Below are positions 7,198 to 19,293 of a stretch of 36,344 nucleotides of DNA, one piece after another. Within the stretch, counting starts at the first letter, position 1, and each line of letters begins with the position of its first letter. Source of the stretch: Candidatus Saccharimonadota bacterium (GTDB taxonomy: Bacteria; Patescibacteriota; Saccharimonadia; Saccharimonadales; Saccharimonadaceae). The DNA is taken from NCBI GenBank assembly GCA_009781895.1, contig WQUV01000005.1, positions 1-36,344 on the forward strand. Reading direction: 5' to 3'. The translations under genes and the position numbers were made by a program. The notes beneath the pieces are model-generated. The model made no database searches, was not told the origin of the DNA, and saw nothing but the letters and a program-made list of their open reading frames with translations.

Positions 7198-7282
7198 TAA
7201 TCCTCCTCTTTTACCCCTCTATTCTAACACACCTCCACCCGCAATACTAGTCTCGTTTTTTTAAGCTTACATGCCTAGACTA

Positions 7283-7357
7283 TTGACTTTTAGCCATAAG
7301 TATGATACAATGCTCGTACAGCTGGTGTGGGCAACTAATTAAGCCCTCCCCTCCAGC
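7283..7357 (+). promoter_or_regulatory. Strong promoter and 5'-end hairpin of the OmpA-lipoprotein operon
   Basis: TTGACT (7283-7288), 17 bp, TACAAT (7306-7311). The segment from -35 to just past -10 is nearly identical to that at 9930-9959, including CATAAGT in the spacer. The transcript would start near 7318 and immediately enter a nested hairpin: GCTGG (7321-7325) with CCAGC (7353-7357) enclosing GGGC (7329-7332) with GCCC (7343-7346). About 98 nt of leader remain before the ATG at 7456, with nothing else recognisable. A 5'-terminal stem of this kind would be expected to protect the mRNA. Confidence 0.8.
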
Positions 7358-9903: not shown

Positions 9904-10012
9904 TTATGCTATTATCTATTGCATAAGTATTGACTTTTTAACATAAGTGTGATATAATGGAAGGGACCAACTGAGAATAAGTTGGCAGGCGACGGGTTAG
10001 TGTAGACTACCC
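9904..10012 (+). promoter_or_regulatory. Strong promoter with CATAAG repeats and hairpin-rich leader of the coiled-coil gene
   Basis: TTGACT (9930-9935), 17 bp, TATAAT (9953-9958). Upstream lie TTATGC (9904-9909) and GCATAA (9921-9926), the inverted repeat also seen at 6578-6599. GCATAAGT (9921-9928) recurs as ACATAAGT (9941-9948), a direct repeat with a 20-bp period that brackets the -35 box, a likely regulator-binding arrangement. The transcript should start near 9965 and opens with CCAACT/AGTTGG (9967-9972, 9980-9985), then GGGTTAGT/ACTACCC (9994-10001, 10006-10012). This fills the 339-bp gap between the genes; nothing else was seen in it apart from the terminator. Confidence 0.8.
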
Positions 10013-11548: not shown

Positions 11549-12751
11549 ATGAGAGACCTAGAGCCAGCTCACCGAATACGCGCCTCAATGCGTGAAGGCT
11601 ATGTCACGACGGACAAGAAACAACCCATATCCAACACTAACGTCCTGAAGCTAGCCCGCGCCTTCGGCCTCAAGTCCCCTAAGATCTTCGCCTACAACCA
11701 CGGCTATCGCAACCACAGCTTCGGTATCCTCTCCGAAGATAAAAAATACAACCTCATGCTCCTCAAAAACGAACCAAACGCCCTCGAACGAGCCGAGCGC
11801 GCCGACGCCATCGCCAAAACTGTCGCCGCCCACTCCAATCTCCCTATCCGCATCCTCGCAAATCCTCGCACCCTCAAAGTCACCACCTCTAGAGGCTTCC
11901 GCCTCGTCCGATTGTATAACTGGCTACCTGGAGATACTATCCCCTGGGAAGCCTACACTCAAAAACACCTAAAGGCACTTGGCATTACGCTCTCCAAACT
12001 CCATAAATCCATCAGTAAGTCTACCGCTTCTAAGGTAGTTAAGGCTGCCCCTACCGCAGAAGCGGTAGTCTTACCAGATGCCTTAGTGGAGCTCTTAGAG
12101 CAGAACACTAAAATGCAAACCTACTTCAATAACCCAGCCGTCATCAAAGCCCTTGATACCAAGCTCCACCTCAAAACCAAGCATAACCACACCCAAATCT
12201 CCAGATTTCTGGAGTCTCATGAGCTCTCAAACCTACCAAAGCAACCATTACATTTAGATTTCGTCAGAGGCAACATATTGTGGGAAGAATCTATTGTCAG
12301 CTGTGAAGCAGTTTCTTCCGAAGCGTTGCAAGGTGAAGTCTCCGGGGGAGACAGAGGGCCGCTAGGTCCTGTGGTTTCGCTGAGGAAGAAAGCTGCTTCA
12401 CAGGAGCTGACAGTGCTTTTTCCTAAAATATCCGGCATCATCGACTTCGAAAAAACTGCTATGGGCAGCCCCCTGATAGACCTGGCGCGAACCTACGCCT
12501 TCCTCCTCGTTGACTGCCCAAAGCCCGAGGACAAAATCGTCAAATACTTCCTCCATAGCGGCTACATCAAATATGGCAGAAGTCAACTTCCCCTCCCTCC
12601 CAAGATATTTTATAATCTCACTAATTACTTCCTGATCTTCGACCTATACAAGTTCTTGAGCCATAATCCCTATGAAAGCCTAGTCGAAAACTACCATTTC
12701 TGCTGTACCCGTGATATACTCCTAAGTAGAAACATATTGGAGGATTTATGA
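11549..12751 (+). CDS. APH/choline-kinase-family phosphotransferase with two palindromic insertions
   Basis: A 400-residue protein of the aminoglycoside phosphotransferase/choline kinase fold. The catalytic loop is HLDFVRGN (235-242: His235, Asp237, Asn242) and the metal-binding motif is GIIDFEKT (Asp299). The N-lobe carries HGYRNHSFGILSED and a strand with the likely ATP-site Lys (MLLKNEPN). The substrate is unknown; choline, ethanolamine or a sugar are the usual ones. Two palindromic DNA elements are inserted in frame, encoding about residues 157-175 and 250-288; the second separates the catalytic loop from the DFE motif, which are normally about 15 residues apart. The gene overlaps the next by ATGA, and a nucleotidyltransferase follows, so a kinase-nucleotidyltransferase pair activating one small molecule is plausible. 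Confidence 0.82.
   Translation: MRDLEPAHRIRASMREGYVTTDKKQPISNTNVLKLARAFGLKSPKIFAYNHGYRNHSFGILSEDKKYNLMLLKNEPNALERAERADAIAKTVAAHSNLPIRILANPRTLKVTTSRGFRLVRLYNWLPGDTIPWEAYTQKHLKALGITLSKLHKSISKSTASKVVKAAPTAEAVVLPDALVELLEQNTKMQTYFNNPAVIKALDTKLHLKTKHNHTQISRFLESHELSNLPKQPLHLDFVRGNILWEESIVSCEAVSSEALQGEVSGGDRGPLGPVVSLRKKAASQELTVLFPKISGIIDFEKTAMGSPLIDLARTYAFLLVDCPKPEDKIVKYFLHSGYIKYGRSQLPLPPKIFYNLTNYFLIFDLYKFLSHNPYESLVENYHFCCTRDILLSRNILEDL
12015..12074. repeat. Family II palindromic element inside the kinase gene
   Basis: Arms at 12015-12038 and 12051-12074 pair at 21 of 24 positions around a 12-nt loop TTAAGGCTGCCC. The loop matches that of the element at 13336-13400 at 9 of 12 positions, although the arms are unrelated. 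It is read in frame (VVKAAPT in the loop region). Confidence 0.75.
12294..12413. repeat. Family I palindromic element inside the kinase gene
   Basis: Arms at about 12295-12325 and 12378-12413 are complementary with small bulges (GTCAGCT, GTGAAGCAG, TTTCTTCC and AGCG all find partners). The core at 12327-12359 is identical over 33 bp to 14414-14446 and contains the hairpin GTCTCC-GGG-GGAGAC. It is translated as EALQGEVSGGDRG. Confidence 0.8.
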
Positions 12752-13317
12752 GTGCTGCCGCTATGCCCAGCAGTTTTAAGAAACGTCTAGTTTCGCAGAG
12801 TAACCTTATGGAGCTCGGCGAAAAACTCCGCGCATCCGGCAAAAGAATCGTCTTTACCGCTGGCAGCTGGGACCTCATGCATGTCGGACAAACCCGCTAT
12901 CTGGAGGAAGCGAAAAAGCTCGGCGACATACTTGTGGTCGGCGTCGTCGCTGATCGCGCCATAGCTAAGGTCAAAGGCCCCAACAAGCCCATTCTCGGCG
13001 AAAAAGTCCGCGCCGAAGTCGTTAGCGCCCTTCGCGCCGTCGATTTTGTCACCATCATTCCTGAACCATCTTGTGCCCCCAGCCTCGGCCTTCTCCGCCC
13101 CGACGCTTACGTCACCGTCAAAGAAGACTGGGCCTCCGACTACGAAAGCTCCGTCGAAAACCGTACCGTCACTAGCTACGGCGGCAAGATCCTCGTCGTC
13201 GACCGTCAAAGCACCGACATCTCCACCAGCAAAATCCTCGCCCGCGCCATCGGCGGCGGCCTCTCTGACGTCCTCAAAGATTTCATGCAGTACCGCAAAG
13301 ACCCATTAAAGGAATAA
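12748..13317 (+). CDS. RfaE/cytidylyltransferase-like nucleotidyltransferase
   Basis: A 189-residue HIGH-type nucleotidyltransferase. FTAGSWDLMHVGQTRYLEEAK (about 35-55) is the family start: a glycine-turn, then HVGQ in place of HxGH. GDILVVGVVADRAIAKVKGP and PILGEKVRAEVVSALRAVD match RfaE C-terminal domains and phosphoethanolamine cytidylyltransferases. Such enzymes join a nucleoside triphosphate to a phosphorylated alcohol or sugar, releasing pyrophosphate. The ISTSKI box near the end corresponds to the ISxTxI motif that contacts the nucleotide. It follows the kinase gene with an ATGA overlap and GGAGG 4 nt upstream. The exact nucleotide and acceptor cannot be read from sequence. Confidence 0.85.
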   Translation: MSAAAMPSSFKKRLVSQSNLMELGEKLRASGKRIVFTAGSWDLMHVGQTRYLEEAKKLGDILVVGVVADRAIAKVKGPNKPILGEKVRAEVVSALRAVDFVTIIPEPSCAPSLGLLRPDAYVTVKEDWASDYESSVENRTVTSYGGKILVVDRQSTDISTSKILARAIGGGLSDVLKDFMQYRKDPLKE

Positions 13318-13319
13318 CT

Positions 13320-13937
13320 GTGAGCAGTGAGGAGCTTGAGTCGGTAAGAAGTTCTGAGACAGTCAAGGCTGTTCCTGTCTCAGAGCTTCCTAACGCTCAA
13401 AACCCATTGTCACCAAAGCAAATTGCCTACAGAGACGCCCGCATAACTGGCGAATACGACCAAATCTGGCAAACCGTCGGTAAGTGTTGCTTTTGCGACA
13501 TGCGCGAACGCTACATCATCCACGAAAAAGACGGCGTGGTCCTCACCATCTCCCTCTTCGCCTACATCGATGGTCATATGCTAATCGTCCCCCGTCGCCA
13601 CATTCGTGGCGTCAAAGAGTTTACACCCAAGGAGTGGGAAGCTGTCCGCGAACTTATGTATATCGCACAAAAGATCATCCGCAAAGTCTGGGGCATCAAA
13701 GGCGTCCAGTTTATCCAGAAGGTCGGTGCCACAGCTCAAAGCTCTGTCAACGAGCACATACACTATCATTGCGTCCCGTTCGACGCGCCCGACCTCTCAG
13801 TCTGGAACTACCGCCAGATGAAACTCACCCCTCTCCAAAACGCCCAAAAATACCAAGACCTCGGAGACAAGCTCACCAAACTCGCCAAGCGATTCGAGGA
13901 TAAATATACCGGAGGTGAGGGCAAAGACCATGCCTGA
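13320..13937 (+). CDS. HIT-family nucleotide hydrolase/transferase
   Basis: A 205-residue histidine-triad protein. CCFCDMRERY (56-65) is the zinc-type N-terminal Cys pair, DGHMLIVPRRHI (84-95) is the conserved central strand, and HIHYHCVP (146-153) is the HxHxH triad with His148 as likely nucleophile. These enzymes hydrolyse nucleoside phosphoramidates or dinucleoside polyphosphates or transfer NMP groups. The GTG start at 13320 is 2 bp after the previous stop, with AAAGGA upstream. Codons about 6-27 lie in a palindromic element (13336-13400) placed ahead of the conserved domain, which starts near NPLSPKQIAYRD. The gene overlaps the next by 8 bp. Confidence 0.88.
   Translation: MSSEELESVRSSETVKAVPVSELPNAQNPLSPKQIAYRDARITGEYDQIWQTVGKCCFCDMRERYIIHEKDGVVLTISLFAYIDGHMLIVPRRHIRGVKEFTPKEWEAVRELMYIAQKIIRKVWGIKGVQFIQKVGATAQSSVNEHIHYHCVPFDAPDLSVWNYRQMKLTPLQNAQKYQDLGDKLTKLAKRFEDKYTGGEGKDHA
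13336..13400. repeat. Family II palindromic element at the start of the HIT gene
   Basis: Arms 13336-13362 and 13375-13400 pair along most of their length (TTGAG, AGAAG and TCTGAGACAG all find partners) around a 12-nt loop TCAAGGCTGTTC. The loop is like that at 12039-12050 and is read in the same frame (TVKAVP against VVKAAP). Confidence 0.75.
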
Positions 13938-14892
13938 GGCAACCAAGACTTCGCGCATGCCTCGCACTTATTTCGTCCTAGCCCCACGCGAGATGTCCGA
14001 CAAACGCGTCAAAGAACTAATCCGCGAGCTCCTCCAAAAATCCAAAGGCGGCAAGGTCGTCTTCGGCATCACAGAAGAGGACTATATACTCGGCCATGAG
14101 AACCAACCTCAATTCAGAACCCTGGGGCCCAACCTCGTAAAGTCTCTCGCCGCCCAAGCTCCCGACCACCTCCAAGTATTGACATATTCACAAAAAGATG
14201 GTGTCGACATCATCAACAAAACCGCCTTCACCCACGCCATCGTCATCAACGGCTCCTTCGCCCGCTCATTCCATCTCCGCGATGAATCCAAAGCCATTCT
14301 CGCTAAAGGCGCTCGCATCAAGCATATGTCACCATTCCTCGACGAAGAAGAAGCTAGGTCTTATGCTAACAACTTTGCTCAAGCGTCTGCGAGCTCAGCT
14401 TCGACTGAAGCACTGCAAGGTGAAGTCTCCGGGGGAGACAGAGGGCAGCATGCCCTGTTTTGTGCTGAAGTAGGAGCTTGTGAGCGAAAGATGCTCGATA
14501 AAGAGTTTAGAAAGAGCTTCGACAACTCTTTCCAGACCGCCGCGATCATTGTCAAAGACGGCAAGATTATCGCCAAAGCCAACAATACGGTTGTCCCCTA
14601 TGCGACCTACGCCTGGCACCACGGCCCAGAACGCGAACGACACAAATGCGACGCTGGCGACAGCTCACACTATGACACCTGCCACGCCGAAACCGCGGCC
14701 CTCATCAACGCTGGTCCAGCTGCCCGAGGCGCCGACCTCTACTGCCGCACCTTCCCCTGCCCCCAGTGCGCTAGAAACATCGCCTACGCGGGCATTAAAT
14801 CCGTCTTTTACCAACTTGATTTTGGCGACCCCTATGGCTATAATCTATTTAAAGAGGCTGGGATAGAGTATCAAAAGATGGAGGATTTATGA
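13930..14892 (+). CDS. dCMP-deaminase-like protein with unknown N-terminal domain
   Basis: Residues about 196-320 are a zinc-dependent deoxycytidylate deaminase-type domain: CHAETAALI (251-259; His252 zinc ligand, Glu254 proton shuttle) and CPQCARNIAYAG (277-288; Cys277 and Cys280 zinc ligands). dCMP deaminase makes dUMP, the substrate of ThyA, and thyA is the next gene (ATGA overlap), which supports this role. Residues 1-150 form a separate alpha/beta domain (YFVLAPREMSDKRVKELIRELL; KVVFGITEEDYILGHENQPQF) that I do not recognise. The junction between the domains holds a family I palindromic element (EALQGEVSGGDRG at 160-172). The ATG at 13930 was chosen because TGAGGG is 8 nt upstream; a GTG at 13915 is the alternative. 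Confidence 0.82.
   Translation: MPEATKTSRMPRTYFVLAPREMSDKRVKELIRELLQKSKGGKVVFGITEEDYILGHENQPQFRTLGPNLVKSLAAQAPDHLQVLTYSQKDGVDIINKTAFTHAIVINGSFARSFHLRDESKAILAKGARIKHMSPFLDEEEARSYANNFAQASASSASTEALQGEVSGGDRGQHALFCAEVGACERKMLDKEFRKSFDNSFQTAAIIVKDGKIIAKANNTVVPYATYAWHHGPERERHKCDAGDSSHYDTCHAETAALINAGPAARGADLYCRTFPCPQCARNIAYAGIKSVFYQLDFGDPYGYNLFKEAGIEYQKMEDL
14377..14485. repeat. Family I palindromic element inside the deaminase gene
   Basis: Arms at 14377-14413 and 14462-14485 pair partly (AGCAC with GTGCT next to the core, then AGCTC with GAGCT). The 33-bp core 14414-14446 is identical to 12327-12359. The core-proximal arm bases differ from the kinase copy but stay paired (AGCG/CGCT there, AGCAC/GTGCT here). 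Confidence 0.75.
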
Positions 14893-17115: not shown

Positions 17116-19293
17116 TTAATCTCTCACACACCTAACTGATAGGCCATAGCTCACAGAATCCATGGTCACAGAGTTTACCATGTTAGACAGTACAAGAAAA
17201 TGAGCCATAGAACCAAACGATGAGTTCCATCCTGCAGCAGTGGAAGACCAAAAGTTACCTATGCCAGCACCATACATTCCGTACACGAAGATATCCCCAC
17301 GCGTACCTAACCAATTAAAAAGCAAGCCAGCGGGGTTTGTTGAGCCACCATTAACAGCATTGTTTAACAACGCGAACTCTCCACCGACCCCTCCCGTGGG
17401 GAGTCTCCACCCAGCTGGACAGACATTTATATTTTGGTCGGGCTGATCAGTTTGCATGCTCTGACAGGCATCTGGCTGATTACCCATAGCAGCACACCAG
17501 TTGTATAGGTAGCCGAATTGAGGATTAGTCACACCACCATCGGTTGATATAGAGGGAGCGTTAGGGAAAGTAGTAGGGTTAGCAGCAGCAGGTCGCCAAA
17601 CACAGCCTTCTCCATGATTGCTAAATGAAGCATTATCACCATGACACACCTGTCCAGCAGCAGTGTTTGTACCAATAACACCTTGTGTCAGCATCCGTAC
17701 ATCACCAAACTGGTTATCGCCTCCACCAGCATAGGCCAGGTTGGTCTCCATCCAGCATAGGTCTCCTCCACCCTGTCTGGTGCTAGGGATTCTTCTGATC
17801 CAGTAGGTACGGTTGTCTCGGGCGTCAACTGCCATTGTACGAGTTGTAGGGCAGCTGGATAATGTGATATTTTGCATTAGTATAGACGGATTTGGTTGCG
17901 GTACGTCGGCTACACATCTTACAGCGTTACCAGAAGCCTTTTGATCACTACTGGTCGCTGGAGCAACCACGTCGGCCTCAAAGACTAGACTACGAGCACC
18001 TACAGAGCCAAAGACGGTAGAGGACCAGTAGTGGCCGATGCCAGGGAAAAAGTTGCCATTCCAAAATTGTCCGCCATACTGTCCTAGCCAGTTAGTGCGA
18101 AGGCCTGCATCTGTACCAGTCGCACCATTATTGACAGCATTATTAAGTAGTGCAAACTCGCCAGTGGTAGGCTCACCCGTTGGTAACCTCCACCCAGCAG
18201 GACAGATACTCATGGCTTGATCTGGCTGCCATGAATTAGAGTCCTGGCAAGCGTCGCCCTGGTCACCCATAGCAGCACACCAGTTGTATAGGTAGCCGAA
18301 TTGTCTACCTGCTAGAGCTACGCCACCATCTATGGCTGTAGATGGTGCTTGCGGGAAGGTTGTGGGGTTGGCACCTGGAGGCCTTGCGAACAAAGCCGCC
18401 CCTATGTTGTTTTGCAACCCTTCTTGCAGCCAATCAACAGCATCATTGAACGTATTATTTCCCCCTCCACCATAAGCTAGGTTAGTAAGCATCCAGCACA
18501 TGCCATCAGGCATACGTTGGACCCAGTAAGTTCTGTTGTCTCTAGCATCTACTGCCATAGTGCGTTCTGTAGGACAGTTAAGGTGAGTAATTTCTTGCAT
18601 TAGGATTAGTGGTGGAGGAATGATGTTGATACTAGCAGATATTGTGACTTCTCCTGTGAAATTGCCTGTTGGCATGTATGTACCAGCAGATACCGCAAAG
18701 AAGATATTGTAGTTATTTGGAGTAGTGTTAGCTGTATCGGTGATGGATATAGGTGTGGTGTCTGTTGGTAGGGCAGCGAATCTACTCGTATTAGCTAAAC
18801 TATTTGATACTTGATATGTAGCGTTAAAGTCATTGATAACACCGCTAATCTGGCCGCTAGGTATCGCGAAACCCCACGCACCACGATCCGCTAGATTAGT
18901 GAATGTGGCAGGTGCAGCTATAGTGCCGTTAGTAGGGTCAATAGGTCTAACACCTGATGATGTTAATTGCCCTGCGGGAGGACCCTCTATACCTAGAGTA
19001 TAACCCTCTGCTCCATCGGTAGAGACAGAAACTGTGATACAGCCACTAGCGATATTGCTAATGACTACATCAAGGTTAAGTTCACCACTATTGTGATTAA
19101 ATGTGCTGCATGGACCAGCATTCGAGGTGGTGAGGGACAACGAACCACCAGACATAGGTTCGATTCCTATTTCTTCTTGAGCGTGGGTGGGGCGGATAAC
19201 ATCAGTAAGGATGCCAGCGAAAACTAAAAAGCCCGACACTAATAGCGTCGCGCCCGTTATGCGCTGGATTGCTCTAACTGTGTTACTACCCAT
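17116..19293 (-). CDS. Secreted protein with two FISUMP (Fibrobacter succinogenes major paralogous) domains
   Basis: A 725-residue exported protein. A signal/anchor segment covers about residues 12-38 (TGATLLVSGFLVFAGIL, then THAQ). Residues about 45-225 form a beta-rich domain. Two homologous repeats follow (about 230-460 and 470-725), each with the order ILMQxIT, TMAVDARDNRTYW, CWMxTNLAY, FGYLYNWCAAMG, CPAGWRLPTG, GEFALLNNAVN, YWSS/FWSS and a final VRCV. This order is that of the FISUMP domain (TIGR02145), a lectin-like secreted module of unknown function common in Saccharibacteria. Paired Cys suggest disulfides. The ATG at 19293 is only 3 nt from AAGGAGG, an unusually short spacing, but no other in-frame start fits the signal peptide better. 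A -10 TATAAT is at 19337-19342. Confidence 0.85.
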   Translation of the reverse strand: MGSNTVRAIQRITGATLLVSGFLVFAGILTDVIRPTHAQEEIGIEPMSGGSLSLTTSNAGPCSTFNHNSGELNLDVVISNIASGCITVSVSTDGAEGYTLGIEGPPAGQLTSSGVRPIDPTNGTIAAPATFTNLADRGAWGFAIPSGQISGVINDFNATYQVSNSLANTSRFAALPTDTTPISITDTANTTPNNYNIFFAVSAGTYMPTGNFTGEVTISASINIIPPPLILMQEITHLNCPTERTMAVDARDNRTYWVQRMPDGMCWMLTNLAYGGGGNNTFNDAVDWLQEGLQNNIGAALFARPPGANPTTFPQAPSTAIDGGVALAGRQFGYLYNWCAAMGDQGDACQDSNSWQPDQAMSICPAGWRLPTGEPTTGEFALLNNAVNNGATGTDAGLRTNWLGQYGGQFWNGNFFPGIGHYWSSTVFGSVGARSLVFEADVVAPATSSDQKASGNAVRCVADVPQPNPSILMQNITLSSCPTTRTMAVDARDNRTYWIRRIPSTRQGGGDLCWMETNLAYAGGGDNQFGDVRMLTQGVIGTNTAAGQVCHGDNASFSNHGEGCVWRPAAANPTTFPNAPSISTDGGVTNPQFGYLYNWCAAMGNQPDACQSMQTDQPDQNINVCPAGWRLPTGGVGGEFALLNNAVNGGSTNPAGLLFNWLGTRGDIFVYGMYGAGIGNFWSSTAAGWNSSFGSMAHFLVLSNMVNSVTMDSVSYGLSVRCVRD

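Follow-up and report, generated by a model that had tools for sequence, protein, structure and literature searches.

Introduction

Mobile palindromes that sit inside protein-coding genes have been described chiefly in Rickettsia, and the way in which they move is unsettled. Rickettsia palindromic elements (RPEs) are, as reported in PMC2229807 and PMC6649704 after Ogata et al. (2000, 2002), multicopy palindromes of ~100-150 bp that lie in frame in unrelated protein genes, are absent from the orthologues and also occur outside genes. Long palindromes within coding genes, with arms that are kept complementary, have likewise been described for the mitochondria of Nematomorpha, and template switching was proposed to maintain them (PMC6649704). 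Small, structured, non-autonomous and multicopy repeats are also found among the repetitive extragenic palindromic (REP) sequences and REPINs with their REP-associated tyrosine transposases (RAYTs), and among the miniature inverted-repeat transposable elements (MITEs) such as ERIC, NEMIS and RUP, some of which carry open frames and fuse to genes (PMC2229807). In diversity-generating retroelements (DGRs), finally, retrohoming in phage BPP-1 needs a hairpin or cruciform after the variable repeat (VR), in which the structure of the stem matters and its sequence is free (Guo et al. 2011, PMC3240598), and the published DGR hairpins are single, with stems of 7-10 bp and a 4-nt GRNA loop (PMC3240598).

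Here we describe family I, a hairpin-forming element in a kinase and a deaminase gene of a 36,344-nt contig (WQUV01000005.1, assembly GCA_009781895.1) from a Candidatus Saccharimonadota bacterium; this whole stretch, contig C5 of genome G000 (678 kb, 98.8% complete), is called the window. Further copies in other genes on both strands, insert-free homologues and covarying stems support the proposal of the initial annotation, and family I is very probably a mobile palindromic element tolerated inside proteins. Its likeness in behaviour to RPEs, also noted there, is upheld by the comparative data: family I is a multicopy palindrome of ~100-150 bp, in frame in unrelated genes with orthologues that do without the insert. 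On this comparison it appears to work like a Rickettsia-type protein-coding palindrome, and we assign it to no named RPE family. It differs from RPEs in residing in another phylum, in a core not recognised as RPE (RPEs being compared by description only) and in that this core is common to distant bacteria and DGRs; moreover, whereas PMC6649704 describes the repeat identity of RPEs as lost over time, the arms of family I keep or renew their complementarity. The Nematomorpha palindromes, in contrast, have no reported conserved core and replace coding sequence, whereas family I is a dispersed, inserted element.

Results

An identical structured core lies in frame in two unrelated genes

The host genes of the two window copies are unrelated, as annotated (PF01636 APH versus PF00383 dCMP deaminase), and share a 33-bp core that is the same letter for letter at 12327-12359 and 14414-14446 (TGCAAGGTGAAGTCTCCGGGGGAGACAGAGGGC). 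A 54-nt repeat around this core (12309-12362 and 14396-14449, 87%) was recovered unprompted, and a chance pair of identical 33-mers is expected ~1e-11 times in a sequence the size of the window. Both copies contain the inner hairpin GTCTCC-GGG-GGAGAC, differ by the paired changes described beside the core (AGCG/CGCT versus AGCAC/GTGCT) and use a common frame in which they read EALQGEVSGGDRG. The claim that each copy folds back on itself stood in part: compared with dinucleotide shuffles, the arms pair with themselves in the kinase copy (z -7.15, 0/200) and not significantly in the deaminase copy alone (z -1.26, 19/200). The structure of the deaminase copy is supported by covariation across all members of the family (see below). 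The features of both loci are collected in Table 1.

Table 1. Family I and family II elements of the window and their host genes. Coordinates of the two family I elements are the span of the covariance-model match.
Feature	Position	Strand	Evidence and remarks
Family I element, kinase copy	12302..12404	+	R2 match 82.7 bits; fold z -7.15 over 12294-12413; stem extends beyond the match on each side
Family I element, deaminase copy	14389..14489	+	R2 match 70.0 bits, E 1.5e-17
33-bp core, kinase copy	12327..12359	+	Identity with deaminase copy
33-bp core, deaminase copy	14414..14446	+	Identity with kinase copy
Unpaired junction GGTGAA, kinase copy	12332..12337	+	Invariant in family alignment
Hairpin 1 GTCTCC-GGG-GGAGAC, kinase copy	12338..12352	+	Fold; helix 2, 100% paired, compensatory changes
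Hairpin 2 AGGGCC-gcta-GGTCCT, kinase copy	12355..12370	+	Fold; helix 3
Junction GGTGAA, deaminase copy	14419..14424	+	Invariant in family alignment
Hairpin 1, deaminase copy	14425..14439	+	Fold
Hairpin 2 AGGGCA-gca-TGCCCT, deaminase copy	14442..14456	+	Fold
Host gene, APH-family kinase, 400 aa	11549..12751	+	PF01636 E 2.2e-11; insert at ~residues 249-289
Host gene, dCMP/cytidine-deaminase family, 325 aa	13915..14892	+	PF00383 E 6.3e-13, residues 202-299; insert in linker before deaminase domain
Family II palindrome in kinase gene	12009..12080	+	R1 match 64.8 bits; fold z -7.61
Family II palindrome near 5' end of HIT-domain gene 13320-13937	13333..13404	+	R1 match 65.7 bits; fold z -4.62

Family I is dispersed in one genus of Patescibacteria

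The core also occurs beyond the window. At ≤3 mismatches G000 carries four copies, in the kinase gene, the deaminase gene, a PriA-type helicase gene and a glycosyltransferase gene, all stop-free within long open reading frames (ORFs); the glycosyltransferase copy lies in the opposite orientation and its peptide differs. A covariance model (R2) built on copies from G000 and the sister species G009 detected five copies in G000, all in frame within long ORFs and in both orientations, along with 16 in G009, 15 in G066 and 4 in G092, which belong to the same genus (the G066 and G092 assemblies are incomplete), and 3 in G025 from another genus, with no copy in another 94 genomes from the family and order. 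Single R2 matches in G011 and G310 lacked the canonical core and were set aside as spurious-looking. A pattern of the G000 form, scanned against 295 genomes of the family, matched in G000 only, because the sister species carry other hairpin sequences and the covariance model is needed to find them: the G009 elements have the same architecture as those of G000 with different hairpin sequences. The G009 sequence equals JAISHF010000005.1 over 8000/8000 bases compared, a record deposited as 'Candidatus Nomurabacteria bacterium isolate Hm464_bin166', and therefore belongs to a Patescibacteria lineage with reduced genomes.

Across the genus most family I copies are intragenic, in either orientation, some of those in G009 and G066 are extragenic, and in the sister species the element is read in several different frames. 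A truncated remnant in G009 (L063, ~18912), in which CCAGGGGCGCCAAGCGCCCTGTGTTATGCC is found with GGCTCCTGTTGCGAATTG-type arms, points to a partial deletion.

Homologues lack the insert, which falls in tolerant parts of its host proteins

Where it could be measured, the insert is ~85-140 bp long, most often near 114. At the kinase site GNILW and ISGIIDFE are separated by 10 residues in G066 and by 48 in G000, a difference of 114 nt; the fifth G000 copy has an empty site in G009 (117 nt difference), and other empty sites were found too. Protein alignments revealed that more distant kinases and deaminases, as well as PriA homologues, are without the segment, and at the same site the G009 kinase retains an apparent 3' part of the element (AAGCGCCCTGTGTTCGTGCC), so that homologues are without the segment or hold a remnant of it. 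A peptide module or domain conserved in both window proteins, as the occurrence of EALQGEVSGGDRG in the two genes might suggest, is refuted by these insert-free homologues, by the antisense reading in the glycosyltransferase gene and by the other frames used in the sister species, which leave it next to no probability.

In the kinase the insert separates the LDFVRGN motif from the DFE motif, and in the deaminase it precedes the deaminase domain; these two and the PriA insert fall within loops or linkers. AlphaFold2 assigned a predicted local distance difference test (pLDDT) score <50 to kinase residues 249-289 and deaminase residues 154-186 (the deaminase model being weak overall, mean pLDDT 65.8), and this very low confidence would, as expected, fit disordered loops. 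Intragenic copies keep the frame open and add ~30-40 predicted residues to their host proteins. This requires no special mechanism, because out-of-frame or stop-containing insertions in these genes would be lost. Alternatively, the insert might never be translated, being spliced from the mRNA or skipped by the ribosome as the byp elements of yeast mitochondria are, and such very stable hairpins in conserved genes, together with the known palindromic bypassed elements (PMC6649704), would be in keeping with this; yet skipping would require neither the open frame that the intragenic copies hold nor their avoidance of the stop-containing frames of the element, and we consider it very unlikely. Open frames and low-pLDDT loops agree, indirectly, with an insert that would be translated and tolerated.

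Some insertions probably predate the split of G000 and G009 and then decayed in frame or evolved with the fold kept, since the G009 kinase holds a remnant and the glycosyltransferase copy occupies one shared site in G000 and G009, between which 6 of its pairs differ on both sides and 0 on a single side. In G009 the PriA gene (G009:C2:22698-24466; L074, L147) is divided into two ORFs in different frames with a TGA, and the break is near the place of the family I insert in G000 PriA; an insertion or excision may have failed here, or the sequence may contain an error. At two sites (L036/L060 and L053/L068) one and the same linker of an orthologous gene holds a palindrome of a second family, family II (see below), in G000 and a family I copy in G009; these may be insertion-tolerant hot spots or reflect repeated use of one site.

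The structure covaries while the outer arms differ from copy to copy

Family I copies share the architecture GGTGAA-hairpin 1-AAGAGG-hairpin 2, two hairpins closed by a long outer stem, with GGTGAA and AAGAGG as conserved unpaired parts. In 19 realigned copies, whose alignment was fitted to the model and thus favours the proposed structure, 79% of the cells were paired versus 60% when shuffled, 87 cells were double-changed versus 28.7, and the structure outscored every slid version; for hairpin 1 the paired share was 100%, and compensatory changes were present. The excess of arm pairing over shuffled sequence, which the deaminase copy lacks by itself, is therefore present in the family. None of the 4227 covariance models of Rfam matched the element or its core as a family, and the window elements gave only chance-level miRNA hits.

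The outer arms vary from copy to copy but remain self-complementary. Within a subgroup of G066 and G009 copies, the inner arms resemble one another down to a shared mismatch (CATAGCGAGC / GCGAGTCTTG), and the 18-20 bp further out show no relationship among many of the copies and are complementary nonetheless. Slow compensation is a poor explanation for arms that are unrelated between copies yet complementary; arms made from target DNA at insertion, or insertion into pre-existing hairpins, would explain them better. Single cases are suggestive of one arm being a copied target flank, and that this is always so is conjectural, because a scan for excisable segments against the homologues left the boundaries of the insert ambiguous.

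The size, palindromy, copy number and non-autonomy of family I would equally suit an ordinary MITE moved by a DDE transposase via terminal inverted repeats. Family I, however, is built inside out, with a conserved centre and variable ends in place of conserved terminal inverted repeats, and no target-site duplication was recognised in the excision scan with its ambiguous boundaries; we thus hold a MITE of this kind to be rather improbable. Dispersed structured repeats with paired hairpins also bring to mind a REP-like element moved by a RAYT or Y1 (HUH) transposase. This is even less likely than untranslated inserts, as the hairpin feet read GGTGAA and AAGAGG rather than GTAG, and the Y1 transposase domain PF01797 is absent from the four genomes of the genus, from G025 and from high-copy carriers such as G343 (86) and G337 (58). 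A further difference from REPs and MITEs is that in-gene copies are as frequent as coding density predicts, according to the family II data (see below).

The core recurs in other bacteria

With the relaxed core pattern GGTGAATTGSC-N(3-15)-GSCAAGAGG, from which hairpin 2 is left out, at least 118 stretches were matched among 84,980 species (~25 estimated by chance over the whole collection), while the exact long core had zero matches in the same species. Among the matches listed, Rhodobacteraceae prevail overwhelmingly, followed by Clostridia, and there is no Rickettsia. Hairpin 2 formed in 132/139 matches outside Patescibacteria versus 46 when shuffled, and each genome held 7-58 cores among six Rhodobacteraceae and 55, 71 and 86 among three Clostridia; the reversed control gave 0 everywhere. 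In Rhodobacteraceae and some Clostridia the core is high-copy, mostly intergenic and present with both hairpins, and its cultured carriers include Leisingera, Salipiger, Paracoccus and Acutalibacter. Among 380 Patescibacteria genomes scanned with the core pattern, a convincing match was found in G000 only. A model built from Rhodobacteraceae alone (R3) detected 13 G009 copies at E <=2.5e-4 (best 1.6e-12) and gave E 0.12 on the fifth G000 copy. A plasmid search with the G009 element returned nothing, phage records a 21-nt match only, and literature searches for the core string or its description nothing relevant.

On three annotated plasmids of Rhodobacteraceae the core lies between genes, with its 3' side 0, 14 and 31 nt from the stop codon of an opposite-strand gene, such that the core in reverse complement starts at these distances past the stop. 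This placement, the extragenic copies in G009 and G066 and the strong and conserved structure are what one would expect of a terminator-like or other regulatory RNA that is kept for its function and attenuates expression when intragenic. In the genus, however, the copies are mostly intragenic, in both orientations, homologues do without them, and the frame is kept, for which a regulatory RNA has no need; as an account of family I we regard this as unlikely, though more probable than a MITE. In other phyla the core could have a regulatory role.

The core follows the variable repeat in a group of DGRs

In IMG/VR the core pattern occurs at 60 loci, 23 of which have a reverse transcriptase (RT) ~0.4-0.7 kb downstream on the same strand. 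At 18 of these 23, a repeat whose end lies 5-44 nt ahead of the core recurs between the core and the RT, and the two repeats differ almost only at adenines of the downstream copy; judged by sequence, such an adenine-specific repeat pair is the signature of the VR and template repeat (TR) of DGRs. In an unbiased test that started from two of these RTs rather than from the core, 17 of 25 loci with enough upstream sequence carried the core (13 strict and 4 relaxed with hairpin) at 390-630 nt upstream, against a background of 0.024 cores per 800 nt. The core was seen to recur between VR and TR in the DGR group at L318, L326, L344, L319, L342 and other IMG/VR loci. Six more IMG/VR loci (L317, L322, L327, L347, L356, L368) have a GCCGC...GCGGC closing stem and a long conserved downstream tract without a nearby RT, and one of this set has a DNA methylase gene downstream.

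Like the described DGR hairpins, the core is a GC-rich hairpin structure directly downstream of a VR, with the structure of the stem kept and its sequence variable. It is not of the GRNA-loop type: there are two hairpins, with loops GGG and GCTA/GCA and junctions GGTGAA and AAGAGG. The G000-form pattern had no match in viral contigs, and VR, TR and RT are all absent beside the element in the window.

A second palindrome family and other features of the window

G000 harbours a larger family of in-frame palindromes, family II (~29 copies, L029-L057; loop AGTCAAGGCTGTTCCT), with strong covariation (141 double-changed cells versus 67). G009 has two weak relatives and several empty sites. About 25 of the 29 copies lie in genes; with coding density estimated at 0.91 this share is as expected (p 0.34), so that genes are not avoided. 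Two sense frames of family II are open and 12/13 copies use the same one (p 0.002), a bias that suggests selection for a tolerable Ala/Val/Pro-rich peptide.

Self-BLAST also returned the 31-nt motif TTGACTTTTTAACATAAGTGTGATATAATG, near-identical at 7281-7312 and 9929-9959 of the window and repeated at many other places of the genome, among them L019, L021, L022 and L013, with an unusually conserved spacer; it was rejected as a palindrome family, being promoter-like and not palindromic. On the minus strand, 17116-19293 encodes a 725-aa protein with FISUMP domains (TIGR02145, E 7e-24) and internal 60-nt repeats, which resembles stretches in loci L020 and L023 of the genome. Lectin-like folds of the FISUMP sort are frequent DGR targets, but the RT search of G000 (see Discussion) detected none.

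Discussion

We propose that family I is a non-autonomous, mobile, hairpin-forming element whose folded core would be the target, in trans, of a machine of the retroelement type or specific for structure; G000 does not visibly encode such a machine. Frame-keeping would reflect the survival of tolerable insertions, and the complementarity of the arms would be kept after insertion via templated palindrome correction or selection on the fold. Mobilisation of the retroelement type is the mechanism that we favour, although we hold it to be less likely than not. On a still more doubtful scenario, one two-hairpin structure, recognised by an RT-based homing system (a DGR or a relative), would have spread across phyla as a 'retro-target' element and, in one Patescibacteria genus, become a stand-alone palindrome that was repeatedly written into coding genes, its arms formed or restored from the flanking DNA through templated copying.

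Several observations weigh against a mobile family I and its proposed mobilisation. The mobilising machine is hypothetical, because G000 yielded neither a Y1 transposase, of which (as PF01797) none was found in any of the four genomes of the genus, nor a DGR-type RT, for which 669,855/677,865 G000 bases (98.8%) were searched by tblastn, phmmer and a viral-RT hidden Markov model. The excision scan against homologues defined neither a target-site duplication nor sharp ends. Model R3 has no direct match to the four G000 copies of the GTCTCC type, and the link to Rhodobacteraceae runs via G009. Finally, polymorphic insertion within one species was not seen, so recent movement is something that we infer rather than observe.

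Compared with the described systems, the novelty lies in the phylum, in the 'dialects' in which single species carry one structure, in a core common to several phyla and in the position of this core at DGR target sites. A reduced Patescibacteria genome here offers counted copies, empty sites, insertions common to two species and a covarying structure. For one group of DGR target sites the core provides a signature, in sequence and in structure, that is unlike the published GRNA-loop hairpin and could be used to search for such sites. Since it occurs in cultured bacteria and DGRs, the machinery that recognises it is testable in laboratory strains.

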